A stretch of DNA of 64,000 nucleotides from a bacterium (GTDB taxonomy: Bacteria > Electryoneota > RPQS01), in the NCBI GenBank assembly GCA_023382385.1, contig JAHDVH010000002.1:262219-326218 (forward strand), written 5' to 3'. The notes below the pieces were generated by a model. It worked only from the letters and a program-made list of their open reading frames with translations, ran no database searches and was not told where the DNA came from. The first letter of the stretch is position 1. The number at the start of each line of letters is the position of its first letter. Made by a program: the position numbers and the translations under genes. Positions 14,580 to 21,757 of the stretch are shown piece by piece.

Positions 14580-15275
14580 TTAGTCTTTTGTCTTAATGGT
14601 CTTGCGCCCCGTCGTCAGCTTGGTGCGAACTTCACGCACCACAGCAGGCCTCAAGAGATGTTCATAGTCCTGCAAAAACTCTTCCACTTGTGATTTATGC
14701 GTGGAAATCGCCGAGCGCAGCCCCCACGACACGGCTTTGTAGATCATCGGCTCCCGCTCCTCGGCAAGAACTTCCAGCCGCTCAAACAACTCGTCCGCAA
14801 ACAGACCGTCCCGAATCGGGCGCACCAGCACCACCAGCGACGCGCGCCGTTTCCACAGCGACCGCGAGCGTGTCCAGCTTTCCGTCTTGGTCACAAGCTC
14901 CGGCCAGCGCACGAGAAAGAGCGACAGCAAATCACAGCACAAGCAGTCCACCAGCGCCCAGCCTTCGCAATCGTCCAGCCACTTGCTGAAAATCGTCCAG
15001 TGGCTCTTCTGAAAGTCCTTGCGCTTGCGCACGGCAATATCAACCGCAAGGCCTTTGGCTTCAAACACGTCCTGCGCACGGAGCGCGCTCAACGCTTCCG
15101 GCCAATTCTCCGGCAGGTCAATCAGCAACGCTCTGCCGATGCGCTCAACGTCCTTCTGATAGACTCCGAGCAGTTCATACTTGTCCGTGCCGAGATAGCC
15201 CGCGGGCGGCTGATTGCGCAGCTTCACCGCACGCAACTGCTTCAGAGCTTCGCGCGCAAACTGTGCGGAAGTCAC
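14580..15275 (-). CDS. AlkD-family DNA alkylation repair protein
   Basis: A 231-residue all-helical HEAT-like repeat protein of the DNA-7-methylguanine glycosylase (AlkD) family. The pattern YLGTDKYELLGV near the N-terminus, KWLDDCEGWALVDCLC and SRSLWKRRASLVVLV match the family's DNA-facing helices, including the Trp/Asp/Arg-bearing repeat. AlkD removes bulky or charged N7- and N3-alkylated bases. The ATG overlaps the stop of the thioredoxin gene by an ATGA, so it is cotranslated with an unrelated envelope protein. A second alkylation glycosylase gene (Tag) lies at 45805. Confidence 0.8.
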   Translation of the reverse strand: MTSAQFAREALKQLRAVKLRNQPPAGYLGTDKYELLGVYQKDVERIGRALLIDLPENWPEALSALRAQDVFEAKGLAVDIAVRKRKDFQKSHWTIFSKWLDDCEGWALVDCLCCDLLSLFLVRWPELVTKTESWTRSRSLWKRRASLVVLVRPIRDGLFADELFERLEVLAEEREPMIYKAVSWGLRSAISTHKSQVEEFLQDYEHLLRPAVVREVRTKLTTGRKTIKTKD

Positions 15276-16753
15276 TTCAAGAGTTCGGCCGTCTGCGCCG
15301 TGAGCACCTGCACCATTTGCGGATTGTATCCGACGTGGCGGTGCGCAATCTTACCGTCTTTGTCAATCACAAACATCGTGGGAATCCCGCGCACGCTGTA
15401 GGCTTCGGCCAGTTCATTCGTGCCGAACAGCACCGGAAGCGAGTAGCCCGCGTTCTTGATGAACGGCTCCACCTTGTCCGTGCCGCCGCGTTCCCAGACG
15501 TTGACGGCGTAGACTTCAACATTCCCGCCGCCGTTTTCTTTGTAGAACTTGTCGAGCAGCGGCATTGTCAGTTTGCACGGTCCGCACCACGTCGCCCAGA
15601 AATCCAGTACCACCACTTTCCCGCGCAAATCTGAGAGCTTGACCGTTCCGCCGCCCATCTTCTGCAGAGTGAAGTCCGGTGCCGGAACGTCCGTCCGGCC
15701 TTCGACGGCTTTCTGCTTCTGCTCCTGCGACAAATCTCGCTGCTGCAGTTTAGCCGCTTCAAGCAGTTGCTCGGTGCGGCTGGCTTCCACGGCGGTCAGC
15801 AACTCCGGCCAGCGCGCGTCATTCCGAATCGGAATCAAATCCTCGTCTTCCGTATACTGGTCGACGTCGCTCATGCCGAGCTTGGCGGCTTCAAACAGAT
15901 GCTGATACGCGGAATCCGCTTTGCCTGTCAGCGAAAATCCGCACGCGATATTATAGTGATTGATCGCGTCGGGCTGCAAGGCGACCGCTTTGCGCATCGA
16001 AGTCAAATAGCCGTCCCAATCACCCAACTCGCGGCACACCCGAGCGCGAACATCCCACCCGACCGTATTGTCGGGATTGTTCTTCAAGAACTCGTCGAGA
16101 ATCTTCAAGTGCGTCTTGAACTCACCCGGATACAGCATCAGCCGGCGGTGCACGGCTTCAAATTCGCCGGGCCGCTGCTTCTCCATCTCCACAAACAGCT
16201 TGTCGGCCTGCTGTATCTTGCCCGTGCGCGCCCACAGTTCACCCAGAAATGACGGCGCGTGCGGCAGACTGTTGTTCACCGAAATCGCGCGCAACAGCGC
16301 CGCTTCGGCCTTGCTGAAATCGGAATCTTCGTCCACCGGATACGCGGTGGCCTGCAGCAGCGCTCCCCAATAGCTATCCGGACTCACGGTCAGAATCTTG
16401 GCCACATAGCTCTGCTTGGTCGAGAGATTGGGTGAATAACGTCCCGCCATATACAAATCGAGTTCCGACTTGGGATTCTCCGCCGAGCGTTGTTCGTAAT
16501 ACTTGTACACTGCATCCGGATCATCGAGCGAAAGCAAGTCTCCCGCACGAATCTGCACTCCCGCGTCGAACGGATAGTTTTTCTGATAATCGCGCGCGAT
16601 GTCGAGCCGCTGCGGAAACGTGAGGGCCGTTTCGAGCTGTTCCCAGAGCTGCTGTTCGGCGCGGCTGGGAGTATACTTGGAGAGTTTGATGTCCGCGGCG
16701 TTCGCGGTCTGCAGCGTCATCGTCAGCAGCAGTAAGGCAAGAAAGTGTATCAT
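15272..16753 (-). CDS. TPR-thioredoxin (TlpA-like) secreted protein
   Basis: A 493-residue protein: signal peptide (MIHFLALLLLTMTLQTANA), about 320 residues of helical TPR-like repeats (LGELWARTGKIQQADKLF, HYNIACGFSLTGKADSAY), then a TlpA/AhpC-type thioredoxin domain. That domain shows APDFTL, LSDLRGKVVVLDFWATWCGPC (redox CGPC) and the cis-Pro in RGIPTMFVIDKDGKI. It probably reduces or shuffles disulfides in periplasmic proteins, possibly apocytochrome cysteines. It is tightly packed with the lipoprotein gene upstream (4-base overlap) and AlkD downstream (4-base overlap). Confidence 0.88.
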   Translation of the reverse strand: MIHFLALLLLTMTLQTANAADIKLSKYTPSRAEQQLWEQLETALTFPQRLDIARDYQKNYPFDAGVQIRAGDLLSLDDPDAVYKYYEQRSAENPKSELDLYMAGRYSPNLSTKQSYVAKILTVSPDSYWGALLQATAYPVDEDSDFSKAEAALLRAISVNNSLPHAPSFLGELWARTGKIQQADKLFVEMEKQRPGEFEAVHRRLMLYPGEFKTHLKILDEFLKNNPDNTVGWDVRARVCRELGDWDGYLTSMRKAVALQPDAINHYNIACGFSLTGKADSAYQHLFEAAKLGMSDVDQYTEDEDLIPIRNDARWPELLTAVEASRTEQLLEAAKLQQRDLSQEQKQKAVEGRTDVPAPDFTLQKMGGGTVKLSDLRGKVVVLDFWATWCGPCKLTMPLLDKFYKENGGGNVEVYAVNVWERGGTDKVEPFIKNAGYSLPVLFGTNELAEAYSVRGIPTMFVIDKDGKIAHRHVGYNPQMVQVLTAQTAELLK

Positions 16754-17493
16754 TCGTCCTGAAGAGATTGGGTTTTTCTAAGTTGCAGGCTGTCCACCAG
16801 CCCGTAACCTTCTTCTTCTATCGCGAGCAATTCGCGCACGATGCGGATTTCACCGGGCGGACCGATTTGTTCTTTCACCAGCCCGACTCCGTGCGCGAAC
16901 CAGCGCATCGTCTGCCAGTTCGCCAGCTCTCGTTCACGCAGATAGGCAGGTTCCTTCATCTCGTCGCGGTTGTAGCGCGCTTCGACGGAGTCTTTGACTT
17001 CCGGCAACGGAGTCGTCACTGTCATCAGACACTCCTCATAGCGGCCCGCCGGAACCGTCACCGTTTCAAACCCCGCCACGAGCGTTTCCGTACCGGGAGC
17101 GAAGTCCTGCCAAGCACTGTCCTCACTCACGCCGTCATCGAGCCATACCTGATTGAACTGACCAGTATGCAGACGGGATTCGAGCGACGTCATCGAGAGC
17201 ATCGTCACCGCCTCGACGATTCGCCCGTCCGATTGAAACTCAATCGCGCCGTAGGGCAGGTCGTCCCCTTTGACTTCGTAGACCTTCCATTCGCGCCCGC
17301 CGATATAGCGAAACGTCATGGTGTATTCGCGCGCTTCTCCATCTGCGGATTCGCGGTAACGCAACTTTCGCCCTTCGAGCAGCGGGAAGAAATCCGTGCC
17401 GCTGCGATAGACTTTCCGTTCCGGCAACTCTCCGCATCCGCCCCACAGCAGAGCGGCAGTCAGAGCAATCAGTGCGAGCGTAAGGATTCTCAA
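16750..17493 (-). CDS. Putative lipoprotein, function unknown
   Basis: A 247-residue protein with a lipobox LWGGC (Cys20) after a hydrophobic segment. The mature sequence has a beta-rich pattern (FFPLLEGRKLRYRESADGE, EYTMTFRYIGGREWKVYEV, TVPAGRYEECLMTV), typical of envelope proteins that report a mean value from text-like 'DUF3108' domains, though I cannot assign it firmly. Start is TTG at 17493, separated by one base from the stop of the 42-residue mini-gene (TAA, 17495-17497), so re-initiation after the mini-gene is plausible. The 3' end overlaps the thioredoxin gene by 4 bases. Confidence 0.7.
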   Translation of the reverse strand: MRILTLALIALTAALLWGGCGELPERKVYRSGTDFFPLLEGRKLRYRESADGEAREYTMTFRYIGGREWKVYEVKGDDLPYGAIEFQSDGRIVEAVTMLSMTSLESRLHTGQFNQVWLDDGVSEDSAWQDFAPGTETLVAGFETVTVPAGRYEECLMTVTTPLPEVKDSVEARYNRDEMKEPAYLRERELANWQTMRWFAHGVGLVKEQIGPPGEIRIVRELLAIEEEGYGLVDSLQLRKTQSLQDE

Positions 17494-17494
17494 T

Positions 17495-17623
17495 TTATTT
17501 CAGCAAGACCAATTTCTGTGTGGCGACGGATGCGCCGGCGGTCATCCGCAAAATGTAAACTCCCGTAGCCAGCGCGACGGTAACACAAACAAAACTGAGA
17601 ATCATAAAACCAAACGACTTCAT
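17495..17623 (-). CDS. 42-residue mini-gene: signal peptide joined to the end of a sorting tail
   Basis: ATG at 17623, stop TAA at 17495-17497. A strong ribosome site AAAGGAG lies 6 bases upstream (17630-17636). The peptide starts MKSFGFMILSFVCVTVALA, a normal signal peptide, and then continues directly with TGVYILRMTAG...TQKLVLLK, the closing strands of the type IX-style sorting domain. The YPNPFN core and the entire cargo are missing. It matches the ends of its neighbours (ATGIYLLR...TQKLLFLR at 17705; SGVYLYRLTAG at 8820). It is either the product of a large internal deletion in a cargo gene or a leader peptide for the lipoprotein gene one base downstream. Confidence 0.7.
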   Translation of the reverse strand: MKSFGFMILSFVCVTVALATGVYILRMTAGASVATQKLVLLK

Positions 17624-17704
17624 AGCGGCTCCTTTGAGGGTTGTAGTGCAAAGAAGAAGTCATTGGTCCGGTGGGACCCGTCCCGGCCCGGGGAATTCAG
17701 TGAG

Positions 17705-19693
17705 TTATCGCAAAAAGAGTAGTTTCTGAGTGGAGGTCAAGCCGGCAGTCCGGGCACGGAGCAGGTAGATTCCCGTTGCCTTTCCTGCTAAGTCTATGTT
17801 TATATTATGAATTCCGGCTGTGAAGCGTGAATTAGCGACCGTGCTAATGAGACGGCCCTGCACATTGAACACTTCCAACCGCAACTCAGTTTCCTGAGGC
17901 AATTCGAGGGTCACGACCGTATTGCTGTTGAAGGGGTTCGGGTAGGCAGGCGACATGACAAAGTGCGCCGGCAAACCGGGCCGCTCCTCGGCATCCAGAA
18001 CCGTGACCAGCACGGGAATCATCACGACAGTATCAGGGCAATCGTTACTGTGAACGACGAGTCGTCCGAAGAAATCATAGACCCCGTCGTCGGTCGTGTC
18101 GGCAAACACCGAGACCGCAATTTCAAGGCTGTCGCCTGCGGGAATGACGCCGCTGGCCGGTTCGACGGAAATCCACGATCCTTGCGGAGCGAGAGCGATA
18201 GCTTCAAGCGAAAAACTCAAGGCGCCGCTTCCGACATTTTCGAGCGGAAACATCACGCTGCCTGTCACGTGGTTTTCGACGATGATGTTAAGCGAAGAAT
18301 GCAGCGCATCGAAAGCCGGCTGACCGGGCGTGAAGTTGACCTCCGCGAGCGCGCTGTCTCCGACGACGACACTGAACGACGTGTCGCTCTCAATGCACAC
18401 GCCGTCCACCGTGATGTCATAGGTTCCGGCGGCCAGTTCGAGACGGTATCGTCCCTGCGCGTCCGTGATTGTGAAGCGGTCGTCACCTGCGGCTCGCACG
18501 CGTGCCCCAAAGACCGGCTGTCCGTCCGACAATCCGGTCACGATACCCTGCACACCGGCGGGCGGAGAGATGCGCAGCAGATAACCGTGCGTTTGCGTGG
18601 TATCTGTCGGGAGAATCATCGCCCCGCAGACAATCGCTCCACCGTCGGGAAGTTGACTGATGTTGTTGAACCCGGCTTCCGTACCAAGACGGCCATAGCG
18701 CCACGTCCAGAGATTACTTTGCTCTTCGTCGATGGCGCGCATCAGAAAGCTTGTGCGGCTCGACGAGTTCCCCGAGCGTCCGACAAACAGCATTCCGCCA
18801 AACCACGGCATCGCCGCGCGGAACTGATCGGAGAATCCGGGGGAAGAGAAGGTCAAGCTATAGGGCGCACCGTCGGCGGGCAACACAGTGGTGTAGCCAT
18901 AGCCTGAGGCATCCGCGCCGCCGCGGCCAATCAACCAGTAGTTGGAGAGCGGGTCGCGGGCCATCGAGTAGCAATAGTCGTTGTCGCCGCCGTTGAACAC
19001 CAGTCCGTTGCCGACTTGGTTGCCACTAAGATTGACTTCAAACGTCCATTGGTCATAATCGGAGAACTGCGACGCACGGGTGATGCCGCCGACAACGAGA
19101 TTGCCGTTTTCCAACTGCAGCACGCCGTTGGCAATATCCGTGCTGGCTCCGCCGAAGGTGCGACTCCAGACCGTGTCGCCGTTGGCTTCACAGAGCAGCA
19201 CCCACGCATCGGAGCTGTTGCCTTGCAAGCGGTATCCCACTGCAGCGAAGCGTCCGTCGGACAGTCGGGTGATATCCCGACCTTTGCTGAGACCGTTTCC
19301 CGGATTATACACCCGCTCCCAAAGCAAATCGCCGGTTGGAGCGTCGAATGCCAATAGCGTGATGCTTCGGCCGTCATTGTCGAAACCGACCGCAACGACC
19401 GTATCGCCACCCAGATGAATAATGCCTTCGAGAATTTCGTCGGCTTCGGTCATCGAATAGGTGCGCACGTAGAGGGATTCACCCTCCATTGTATAACCGG
19501 CCAACAGATAGTCATAGTTGGGATTGGACAGCGTGCCCGTCGCGCGGTAGCCGCAGGAGACGATGACATCACCGGGAGCCGCTACAACGTCGTAAAGATA
19601 ACAGCGGCCGTCCAATTGGAAACTGCGGGACCAAGTGGTATCGGGCTGAGCCCAGGCGAGGCATGGGAGGAGCAACAGCAGCAGTGCAAGCAT
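17705..19693 (-). CDS. Secreted repeat protein with a type IX-style sorting tail (paralogue of the next gene)
   Basis: A 662-residue secreted protein: short signal peptide (MLALLLLLLPCLAWA), then about 370 residues of propeller-like repeats with the pattern D..W.R.FGG....A..V.....G..V.GG (for example GDTVWSRTFGGASTDIANGV). A carboxypeptidase-regulatory-like domain (VQGIVTGLSDGQPVFGARV, RYRLELAAGTYDITVDG) covers about residues 385-455, followed by an Ig-like anchor segment. The sorting domain runs from about residue 582 (AYPNPFNSNTVV, VFNVQGRLIS, TGIYLLRARTAG, LLFLR). It lies 27 bases downstream of a paralogue with the same domain order; the two are a tandem duplication. Confidence 0.85.
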   Translation of the reverse strand: MLALLLLLLPCLAWAQPDTTWSRSFQLDGRCYLYDVVAAPGDVIVSCGYRATGTLSNPNYDYLLAGYTMEGESLYVRTYSMTEADEILEGIIHLGGDTVVAVGFDNDGRSITLLAFDAPTGDLLWERVYNPGNGLSKGRDITRLSDGRFAAVGYRLQGNSSDAWVLLCEANGDTVWSRTFGGASTDIANGVLQLENGNLVVGGITRASQFSDYDQWTFEVNLSGNQVGNGLVFNGGDNDYCYSMARDPLSNYWLIGRGGADASGYGYTTVLPADGAPYSLTFSSPGFSDQFRAAMPWFGGMLFVGRSGNSSSRTSFLMRAIDEEQSNLWTWRYGRLGTEAGFNNISQLPDGGAIVCGAMILPTDTTQTHGYLLRISPPAGVQGIVTGLSDGQPVFGARVRAAGDDRFTITDAQGRYRLELAAGTYDITVDGVCIESDTSFSVVVGDSALAEVNFTPGQPAFDALHSSLNIIVENHVTGSVMFPLENVGSGALSFSLEAIALAPQGSWISVEPASGVIPAGDSLEIAVSVFADTTDDGVYDFFGRLVVHSNDCPDTVVMIPVLVTVLDAEERPGLPAHFVMSPAYPNPFNSNTVVTLELPQETELRLEVFNVQGRLISTVANSRFTAGIHNINIDLAGKATGIYLLRARTAGLTSTQKLLFLR

Positions 19694-19720: not shown

Positions 19721-21757
19721 CTATCTGAGAAAGAGCAGGCGTTGCGTTTGCGAGCGCAGCTGATCCTGCAGACGTACAAAATAAAGTCCTGAGGCAAGAC
19801 CGTTCGCGTCCCAAGTCAACTCGTGCACTCCTGCGGAAAGTCGGGTTGACCCTAAGAGGTCCGCAACATGGCGGCCCTGCAAATCAAAGACGGTCAAGGA
19901 GACCTCGGAGTCGCGGTCTAAAGCGAAACGGAGTCGCGTCGAACTGTTGAACGGGTTAGGATAGGCGGGGTAGAGTCTGAACTCGGACGGGAGCAGCGGT
20001 GTTTCATCAGCATCGAGAATGACTGCCAGCACTTGCAGCGTGCGCAAAGTTTCGGGGCAGGAGTTCGAACGCAGATACAGGAAGCCGAAGTAGTCGTAGG
20101 TGCCGTCGTCAAGAGTGTCGGCCAGCACCTGCACCTGCACGTTGAGCGTCTCACCGGGTGCCACACGGCCGCTTACAGGAATCGTCGTGAGCCAATCGCC
20201 TTCAGGCATCACGGCTTCCGTTTCGAACGAGAAGACGAGGTCGCCGCTGCCGCTGTTGTAGAGGGGCAAAACTGCGGCGCCGGGAATCCGGTTCTGCGCA
20301 AGCACGTTGACGGTGGTGTTATCCAGCGTCATGTGCGGCACACCGACGGTCAGGTCAGCAGACGTGTTCTCGTTGGCGATGACTTCGATGTTATACAACG
20401 TGTCACCGGTGAAACAGGGGCCGCCGCTGTAGACTGTGTAAATCCCCGCAGGCAGGGAGAGCGTGAAGCGTCCCGAGCTGTCGGAGATCGCATATTGCGG
20501 AAGTTCGGCGGCACTTATCTGCACACCGGCAATCAGTTCGTTCGTCGTGCGGTCGCGCACCACACCGGACACTCCCGACGGCGGACTCATGCGCCAAGCG
20601 AGTCCGCGAATGGCACCGTTGACATAGGCGCTGCCGCAAATCAGATAGCCTCCGTCAGAAAGAGCTTTAAGGTCCTCGAATTGACGACCGGGTTCGGTAC
20701 CGCGCCAACTCCAGATGGAGTCACCGTTTGCACCGACTGCCACCAGCCAGAGTGTAGCTGTGTTAAGTCCCGGGCCGGACCATCCGGCAAACAGGACTCC
20801 GCCTTCGAGGTAGGGTGCGGCCCCGCCAAGCTTCTCACTGGCAAATCCCGCAGAGTAATGTTGTTCCCACAAGACTGAACCCTGCGGACTCAAACGCAAT
20901 GCGTAACCATTATAGTCGGATGAAGTAACCCTGCGTTCTCCGGCAAGAATATAGTCTCCTGTTTCAGGTTCGCGAAACGCAGCACCCATTGTTTCATAGA
21001 GGGCCGGGTCGCCATAGACGGTCTGACTGACCGCTTGTCCGTTTGCATCTACCGTGACCCGCAGGAAATCGTAGAGATTCGTTGTGGGATTTCGAGTAGA
21101 GCCAAACAGCTCGAGCGTTCCGCCATCTCCGGGAAGGATGTTATCCGGGATGTCCATAGTTGTTGTGCCGTAGGTGTAGCTCCAAAGCGAGTCACCATTC
21201 TGAGCGCAGCGGATGAGCCAGAAATCCAGTTCGCGATTGGAGACGACACGGCGACCCAGCACGTAAAGTCCGCCGTCCGGGGCGGGCAGCAATCCGGCGG
21301 CTTCGCTTGCGCCGCTGCTGGGTGTGAAGGACCGCGACCACAGCAAGTCACCGGACAGCGAATAGACCGCTGCCAGCACGGTGGCAGCACTTTGGGCACG
21401 ACCGCACAGACCGAGATTGCCGTTCGGAAACTGACAAATTCCTGTGAACCGTTCTCCGGCGTTGGGAGCGCCAAAGGAACGCGTCCACAACGTGTCACCG
21501 AGCGGGTCGAGCCGCACGAGCAACGCGTCTTCGTTCGAGCCAGTGATGGAGTAACCGGCAACGGCGAAACCGCCGGTCGGCAGTTCGAGTCCTGCGGAAA
21601 ACGAGGTCGTTGTCCCAAAGCTGAAAACACGAGTCCACAGAGTGTCTACGTCGGCGCGCGCCGTGGAGACGAGGCAGACAATAAGCAGGGCAGCCGGAAG
21701 CAAATCCCGTTTCGGATGGAAGTGCATAGGAAGCAGGTCTTTGAAAGGGTTTAACAT
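19721..21757 (-). CDS. Secreted repeat protein with a type IX-style sorting tail (paralogue of the previous gene)
   Basis: A 678-residue protein of the same design as the 17705-19693 gene: signal sequence, propeller-like repeats (DTLWTRSFGAPNAGERFTGI, GDLLWSRSFTPSSGASEAAGL), a carboxypeptidase-regulatory-like domain (VSGVVRDRTTNELIAGVQI, FTLSLPAGIYTVY), an Ig-like segment and a sorting domain (AYPNPFNSSTRLRF, FDLQGRHVADLL, SGLYFVRLQ, LLFLR). ATG 21757 follows a GAGGAA ribosome site; an internal ATG at 21727 would give a more ordinary signal peptide. Transcribed from the promoter at 21786-21814, divergent from the next plus-strand gene. Likely a surface or released structural protein. Confidence 0.85.
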   Translation of the reverse strand: MLNPFKDLLPMHFHPKRDLLPAALLIVCLVSTARADVDTLWTRVFSFGTTTSFSAGLELPTGGFAVAGYSITGSNEDALLVRLDPLGDTLWTRSFGAPNAGERFTGICQFPNGNLGLCGRAQSAATVLAAVYSLSGDLLWSRSFTPSSGASEAAGLLPAPDGGLYVLGRRVVSNRELDFWLIRCAQNGDSLWSYTYGTTTMDIPDNILPGDGGTLELFGSTRNPTTNLYDFLRVTVDANGQAVSQTVYGDPALYETMGAAFREPETGDYILAGERRVTSSDYNGYALRLSPQGSVLWEQHYSAGFASEKLGGAAPYLEGGVLFAGWSGPGLNTATLWLVAVGANGDSIWSWRGTEPGRQFEDLKALSDGGYLICGSAYVNGAIRGLAWRMSPPSGVSGVVRDRTTNELIAGVQISAAELPQYAISDSSGRFTLSLPAGIYTVYSGGPCFTGDTLYNIEVIANENTSADLTVGVPHMTLDNTTVNVLAQNRIPGAAVLPLYNSGSGDLVFSFETEAVMPEGDWLTTIPVSGRVAPGETLNVQVQVLADTLDDGTYDYFGFLYLRSNSCPETLRTLQVLAVILDADETPLLPSEFRLYPAYPNPFNSSTRLRFALDRDSEVSLTVFDLQGRHVADLLGSTRLSAGVHELTWDANGLASGLYFVRLQDQLRSQTQRLLFLR

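Follow-up and report, generated by a model that had tools for sequence, protein, structure and literature searches.

What is a reading frame that encodes a signal peptide and the end of a sorting domain with nothing in between, and why does it stand directly in front of a lipoprotein gene? The window analysed here, to which all positions refer, is the whole 64,000-nucleotide stretch of bacterial DNA that contains this mini-gene. The searches covered 61 genomes. Hereafter, G000 denotes the window's genome, G001 that of a sister species (the only other member of the genus searched) and G006 that of a member of the same family.

Structure of the 42-codon frame

The mini-gene MKSFGFMILSFVCVTVALATGVYILRMTAGASVATQKLVLLK comprises 42 codons from ATG to TAA on the minus strand (17623 to 17495). 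The frame at 17495-17623 noted in a preliminary description is thus real, and its strand, which had not been given, is minus. The strong ribosome site AAAGGAG claimed there was located at 17629-17635 (minus), 5 nt upstream of the ATG. In the window, SD-like sequences precede 7 of 32 first ATGs of long ORFs and 3 of 309 internal ATGs, which indicates that a minority of the genes here do make use of SD sites. With a value of 0.60 (27th percentile of 42-codon windows), the GC3 of the mini-gene is unremarkable.

The first 19 residues, MKSFGFMILSFVCVTVALA (17567-17623, minus), form a signal peptide with an AxA at its end, the cleavage site being assigned by inspection. Joined directly to it is the terminal beta-hairpin of a type IX sorting domain, TGVYILRMTAGASVATQKLVLLK. 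The tail segment (17498-17572, minus) shares two codons, LA, with the signal peptide, and these mark the presumed deletion junction. Against TIGR04183 (T9SS type A sorting domain), the last 24 residues cover positions 47-70 of 72 with 19.6 bits and an E-value of 6.7e-4, which bears out the earlier reading of the frame as a signal peptide plus the last sorting-domain strands only. This score lies under the curated cut-off of 23 bits because two thirds of the domain are missing; PF18962 gave 13.5 against 27 bits. In the modelled sorting domain of the neighbouring cargo protein p1 (mean pLDDT 84.5), the segment aligned to the tail spans the final two strands, 69-76 and 81-88, and the mini-gene has the terminal hairpin (motifs D and E) with its GxY and the C-terminal QK...K. 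Compared with the type A domain as described by TIGR04183 and PF18962, the mini-gene therefore has the last 24 positions, the final two beta-strands and the C-terminal lysine, whereas the earlier predicted strands are gone and both curated cut-offs are missed. As had been stated before, neither a cargo nor YPNPFN is present in the 42 codons, and the complete beta-sandwich is likewise absent from them. The predicted fold of the 42-mer alone is one long helix, which says little, given a single sequence that includes a signal peptide.

No other case of a signal peptide joined to the hairpin was found among the short T9SS-tail frames listed for G000, G001, G006, G022, G025, G028 and G037. The other frames listed are pieces at contig ends, decayed fragments and small proteins whose domain is complete. 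One decayed tail lies in the window's own genome: L047 (G000:C2:591724-591903) carries about 60 sorting-domain residues in a 73-codon frame, with neither signal peptide nor cargo.

Loss of a third tandem cargo gene

Two intact tandem type IX cargo paralogues precede the mini-gene on the minus strand, namely p1 (17705-19693, 662 aa, with orthologues in G001 and G006) and p2 (19721-21757, 678 aa, with an orthologue in G001). The best match to the mini-gene beyond the window, among the 61 genomes, was found in G001, where residues 17-42 are 81% identical to part of a 692-codon open frame ending just before the lipoprotein gene. The gene order in G001 is p2, p1, p3, lipoprotein and TPR-thioredoxin, and in G006 it is p1, p3, lipoprotein and TPR-thioredoxin. 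The window keeps p1 and p2, and the mini-gene stands where p3 would be.

The third gene, p3, has 662 codons in G001 (MKSFGC start, LATGVYLLRVTTGAHVATQKLVLLK end) and 665 codons in G006 (MKSFGF start, LASGVYLLRVEAADFVSTQKLVLLK end). It shows weak carboxypeptidase-regulatory-like and Ig-like matches in addition to the T9SS tail. The two copies are 43% identical (485 bits), whereas p3 reaches at most about 32% against p1 and p2; thus p3 is an orthologue group of its own. An MKSFG start and a TQKLVLLK end are common to the full-length p3 genes and the mini-gene, and the mini-gene signal peptide is homologous to the first 19-20 residues of p3 (MKSFGCLALLL...ARA in G001, MKSFGFLLLAL...AHA in G006). 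The stop codon also stands one base before a TTG in all three genomes: the sequence reads CTGAAATAA-C-TTG in G001, CTGAAATAG-C-TTG in G006 and CTGAAATAA-A-TTG in the window. The mini-gene hence resembles full-length p3 in position, leader, start codons, signal peptide, tail and the stop-N-TTG junction, and differs from it by the loss of about 620 codons from the signal peptide to the tail hairpin.

A chance ORF was considered for the mini-gene and rejected on the basis of synteny, a tail 81-84% identical to that of the full-length gene in G001, and conservation of the leader and the ATG-proximal codons. Relocation of the cargo gene was likewise rejected, as the p3 body stands at no other place in the window's genome. 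In the whole-genome search more than 100 places shared the sorting domain, and the body of G001 p3 was not found among them or elsewhere in that genome; the best whole-body match was p1 (27%), and the rest were partial or fell in shared C-terminal domains.

Full-length, syntenic p3 genes exist in G001 and G006, and the window's genome has no p3 body at any other place; the mini-gene is therefore the product of an in-frame deletion. Given the assembly, it is close to certain that about 620 codons were removed in frame from a p3 gene of about 660 codons. The internal-deletion relic proposed in the preliminary description thus agrees with the relatives, in which full-length cargo genes with the same start, tail and 1-nt junction occupy exactly this place. 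An assembly error, in which the strain has the full gene and the contig skips it, seems very improbable: any homology at the junction spans only a few bases, too short to mislead an assembler, and the missing body lies on none of the 7 contigs of this 98% complete assembly.

The junction falls at LA (codons 18-19), two residues that align on one side with the signal peptide's end and on the other with LATG in the tail. This position would fit what a short-repeat deletion leaves behind, and the mechanism may have been of that kind. No microhomology was found at the presumed junction when the relatives stood in for the parent: the only repeat of at least 6 nt in G001 (CGCTCT) lies elsewhere, and G006 has none. 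No comparable relics of type IX cargo genes were found in the open-access literature. The locus is a snapshot of how a secreted-protein gene can be emptied of nearly everything it encodes and still keep what is relevant to its neighbours: leader, ribosome site and stop/start junction.

Probable translational coupling to the lipoprotein gene

The lipoprotein gene (16750-17493, minus) encodes 247 aa with a lipobox-like WGGCGEL. It starts with TTG 1 nt past the mini-gene stop and has no SD; the arrangement TAA, then A, then TTG confirms the one-base distance reported earlier. A TPR plus AhpC/TSA-thioredoxin (TlpA/ResA-like) gene follows (15272-16753, minus) with an ATGA overlap, and a 231-aa gene (14580-15275, minus) overlaps the latter by GTGA, so that 4-nt overlaps chain these three genes over 14580-17493. 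Neither an intrinsic terminator in the region nor a sigma-70 promoter near the lipoprotein start was found.

Based on the spacing, the missing lipoprotein SD and published precedent, the p3 remnant now probably serves as a leader cistron for termination-reinitiation coupling to the lipoprotein gene. The in-frame deletion joined the last signal-peptide codons of p3 to the LATG codons of the terminal hairpin, and it spared the ribosome site, the conserved leader and the stop-N-TTG junction in its exact form. Ribosomes would load at the AAAGGAG/ATG of the mini-gene, terminate at its TAA and start anew at the TTG, a single base downstream. The lipoprotein and, via the 4-nt overlaps, the thioredoxin-like gene would thereby stay expressed.

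Several features expected of a coupled leader are seen: the mini-gene has its own AAAGGAG, the stop-to-start spacing is +1 nt, and the downstream lipoprotein gene is without an SD. The last feature is weak evidence, because about 70% of long ORFs in the window have no SD near the start. A short distance matters greatly for reinitiation; in Haloferax volcanii, a native gene pair spaced by +1 nt has served as a coupled pair, and in E. coli the last 15 nt of the upstream gene can suffice for coupling (PMC10666635). Like known coupled leader cistrons and gene pairs (PMC10666635, PMC12548453), the mini-gene is a short upstream ORF with its own ribosome site that ends at the next start at a very short distance. 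It departs from them in that the next start is a TTG at +1 nt, where overlaps of -4 or -1 nt are common, in its descent from a decayed secretion cargo, and in that its coupling is putative. With one instance at hand, the mini-gene is real and its origin well explained, and a function for it is plausible but unproven. If the coupling holds, it shows how a dead gene can have its ends protected from loss by the architecture of its operon.

Homologues of the lipoprotein are present in 10 of the 11 family genomes compared. In family members beyond G006, the gene stands mostly behind unrelated genes or a gap; the coupled arrangement thus characterises the group formed by the window, G001 and G006, and coupling is not essential to the lipoprotein gene in general. 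In G007-G010 (L036, L039, L040, L041), CTTACATTCTTG or a close form of it occurs a few bases upstream of the lipoprotein start; two of the four (G009 and G010) have TTGACT in front of it. This combination looks like a promoter of the gene's own, which would leave a very short leader or none. When genome contigs were scanned with the lipoprotein alone, no matches were obtained; a scan with the lipoprotein and a dehydrogenase-like neighbour recovered related MAGs labelled KSB1, Calditrichaeota or just bacterium. As a separate observation, the lipoprotein of G001 may start either at the TTG beside the p3 stop or at a GTG/ATG about 10-18 codons further in (L033:12772-12860).

Constraint on the tail and conservation of the leader

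Of the 25 tail codons compared between the window and G001, 9 are identical, 12 synonymous and 4 replaced, corresponding to a dN of 0.16 and a saturated dS of 2.3. Over the same stretch and between the same two species, intact p1 and p2 have 13 and 6 replacement codons, respectively. In simulations of unconstrained change, the probability of at most 4 replacements and no stop drops below 0.05 from about 0.2 substitutions per site upward. Thus, for the greater part of the time since the window and G001 split, selection has acted on the amino acids of the tail. This leaves two options, a recent deletion or a peptide on which selection still acts.

The first of these options leads to a rather doubtful but still appreciable alternative, in which a late deletion on the window branch left a functionless remnant whose frame and tail have not yet decayed. 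The deletion is indeed seen in one species only, and only two tail replacements (L to I and V to M) are clearly on the window branch. Moreover, the simulated bound allows up to about 0.2 neutral substitutions per site after the deletion, about 17% of the branch if half of the dS of about 2.3 to G001 falls on it. However, the exact junction, the SD and the leader are all kept in a dense operon, and the translation of the lipoprotein would need a separate explanation if the remnant were neutral.

If the peptide is still selected, it may be the product itself that matters. After cleavage, a 23-residue hairpin, TGVYILRMTAGASVATQKLVLLK, could engage the type IX translocon or sortase in the periplasm as a decoy or competitor. 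This reading, in line with the small secreted peptide also suggested in the preliminary description, we regard as improbable. Both partners are encoded in the window's genome, SprA (714 bits summed) and PorU (650 bits) each scoring over the cut-off. In Porphyromonas gingivalis, surface export of GFP fusions requires the 22 C-terminal residues of the HBP35 sorting domain (PMC3120885), and others have described this C-terminal segment as sufficient (PMC5445135; PMC4804311); the part retained in the mini-gene matches these 22 residues (PMC3120885; PMC4804311). The amino-acid conservation of its tail also exceeds that of the intact p1 and p2 tails, although this conservation may predate the deletion. 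In a later study, the beta3-beta4 loop and the folded sandwich to which it belongs proved important as well (PMC11285876), and both are missing from the mini-gene. Nor was any other clean signal-peptide-plus-tail ORF seen among the short frames examined. More improbable still is an elaborate form, in which the gutted cargo would have become a selected secreted hairpin of 23 residues, made in a fixed ratio with the lipoprotein, which binds to the translocon or sortase and thereby adjusts cargo traffic. The mini-gene is at any rate a natural minimal construct, consisting of a signal peptide and the terminal hairpin, for the minimum requirement of type IX export.

The leader between p1 and the mini-gene (17624-17704, minus) contains GGGACGGGTCCCACCGGACCAATGACTTC, and within the 80 nt upstream of the mini-gene stands GGGRYGGGTCCCNCCGG...CAAATG, which is conserved in G001 and G006 as well. 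Exact occurrences of the core motif CGGGTCCCNCCGG were found once in G000 and once in G006, both at the leader of p3 or the mini-gene. One leader arm, CCAATGACTTC (17656-17666, minus), is complementary to the start region of the mini-gene, where its partner GAAGTCGTTTGG (17610-17621, minus) covers codons 1-5. This leader/start-region duplex is energetically more favourable than those formed by shuffled leaders (p = 0.003 for the window, 0.012 for G001 and 0.13 for G006). The consensus fold also pairs the start region with the leader, with no two-sided compensatory change. The total folding energy is ordinary, and no Rfam match was found in the leader up to an E-value of 1. The leaders of p3 and the mini-gene may therefore be regarded as candidate RNA elements that sequester the start site, which is a lead rather than a result. 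In the window (17610-17684, minus) as well as in the relatives (L033:10712-10804; L034:12148-12232), CCAATGACTTC, which reads CCAAATG.TCTTC in the relatives, stands behind a small GGGACGGGTCCC hairpin.
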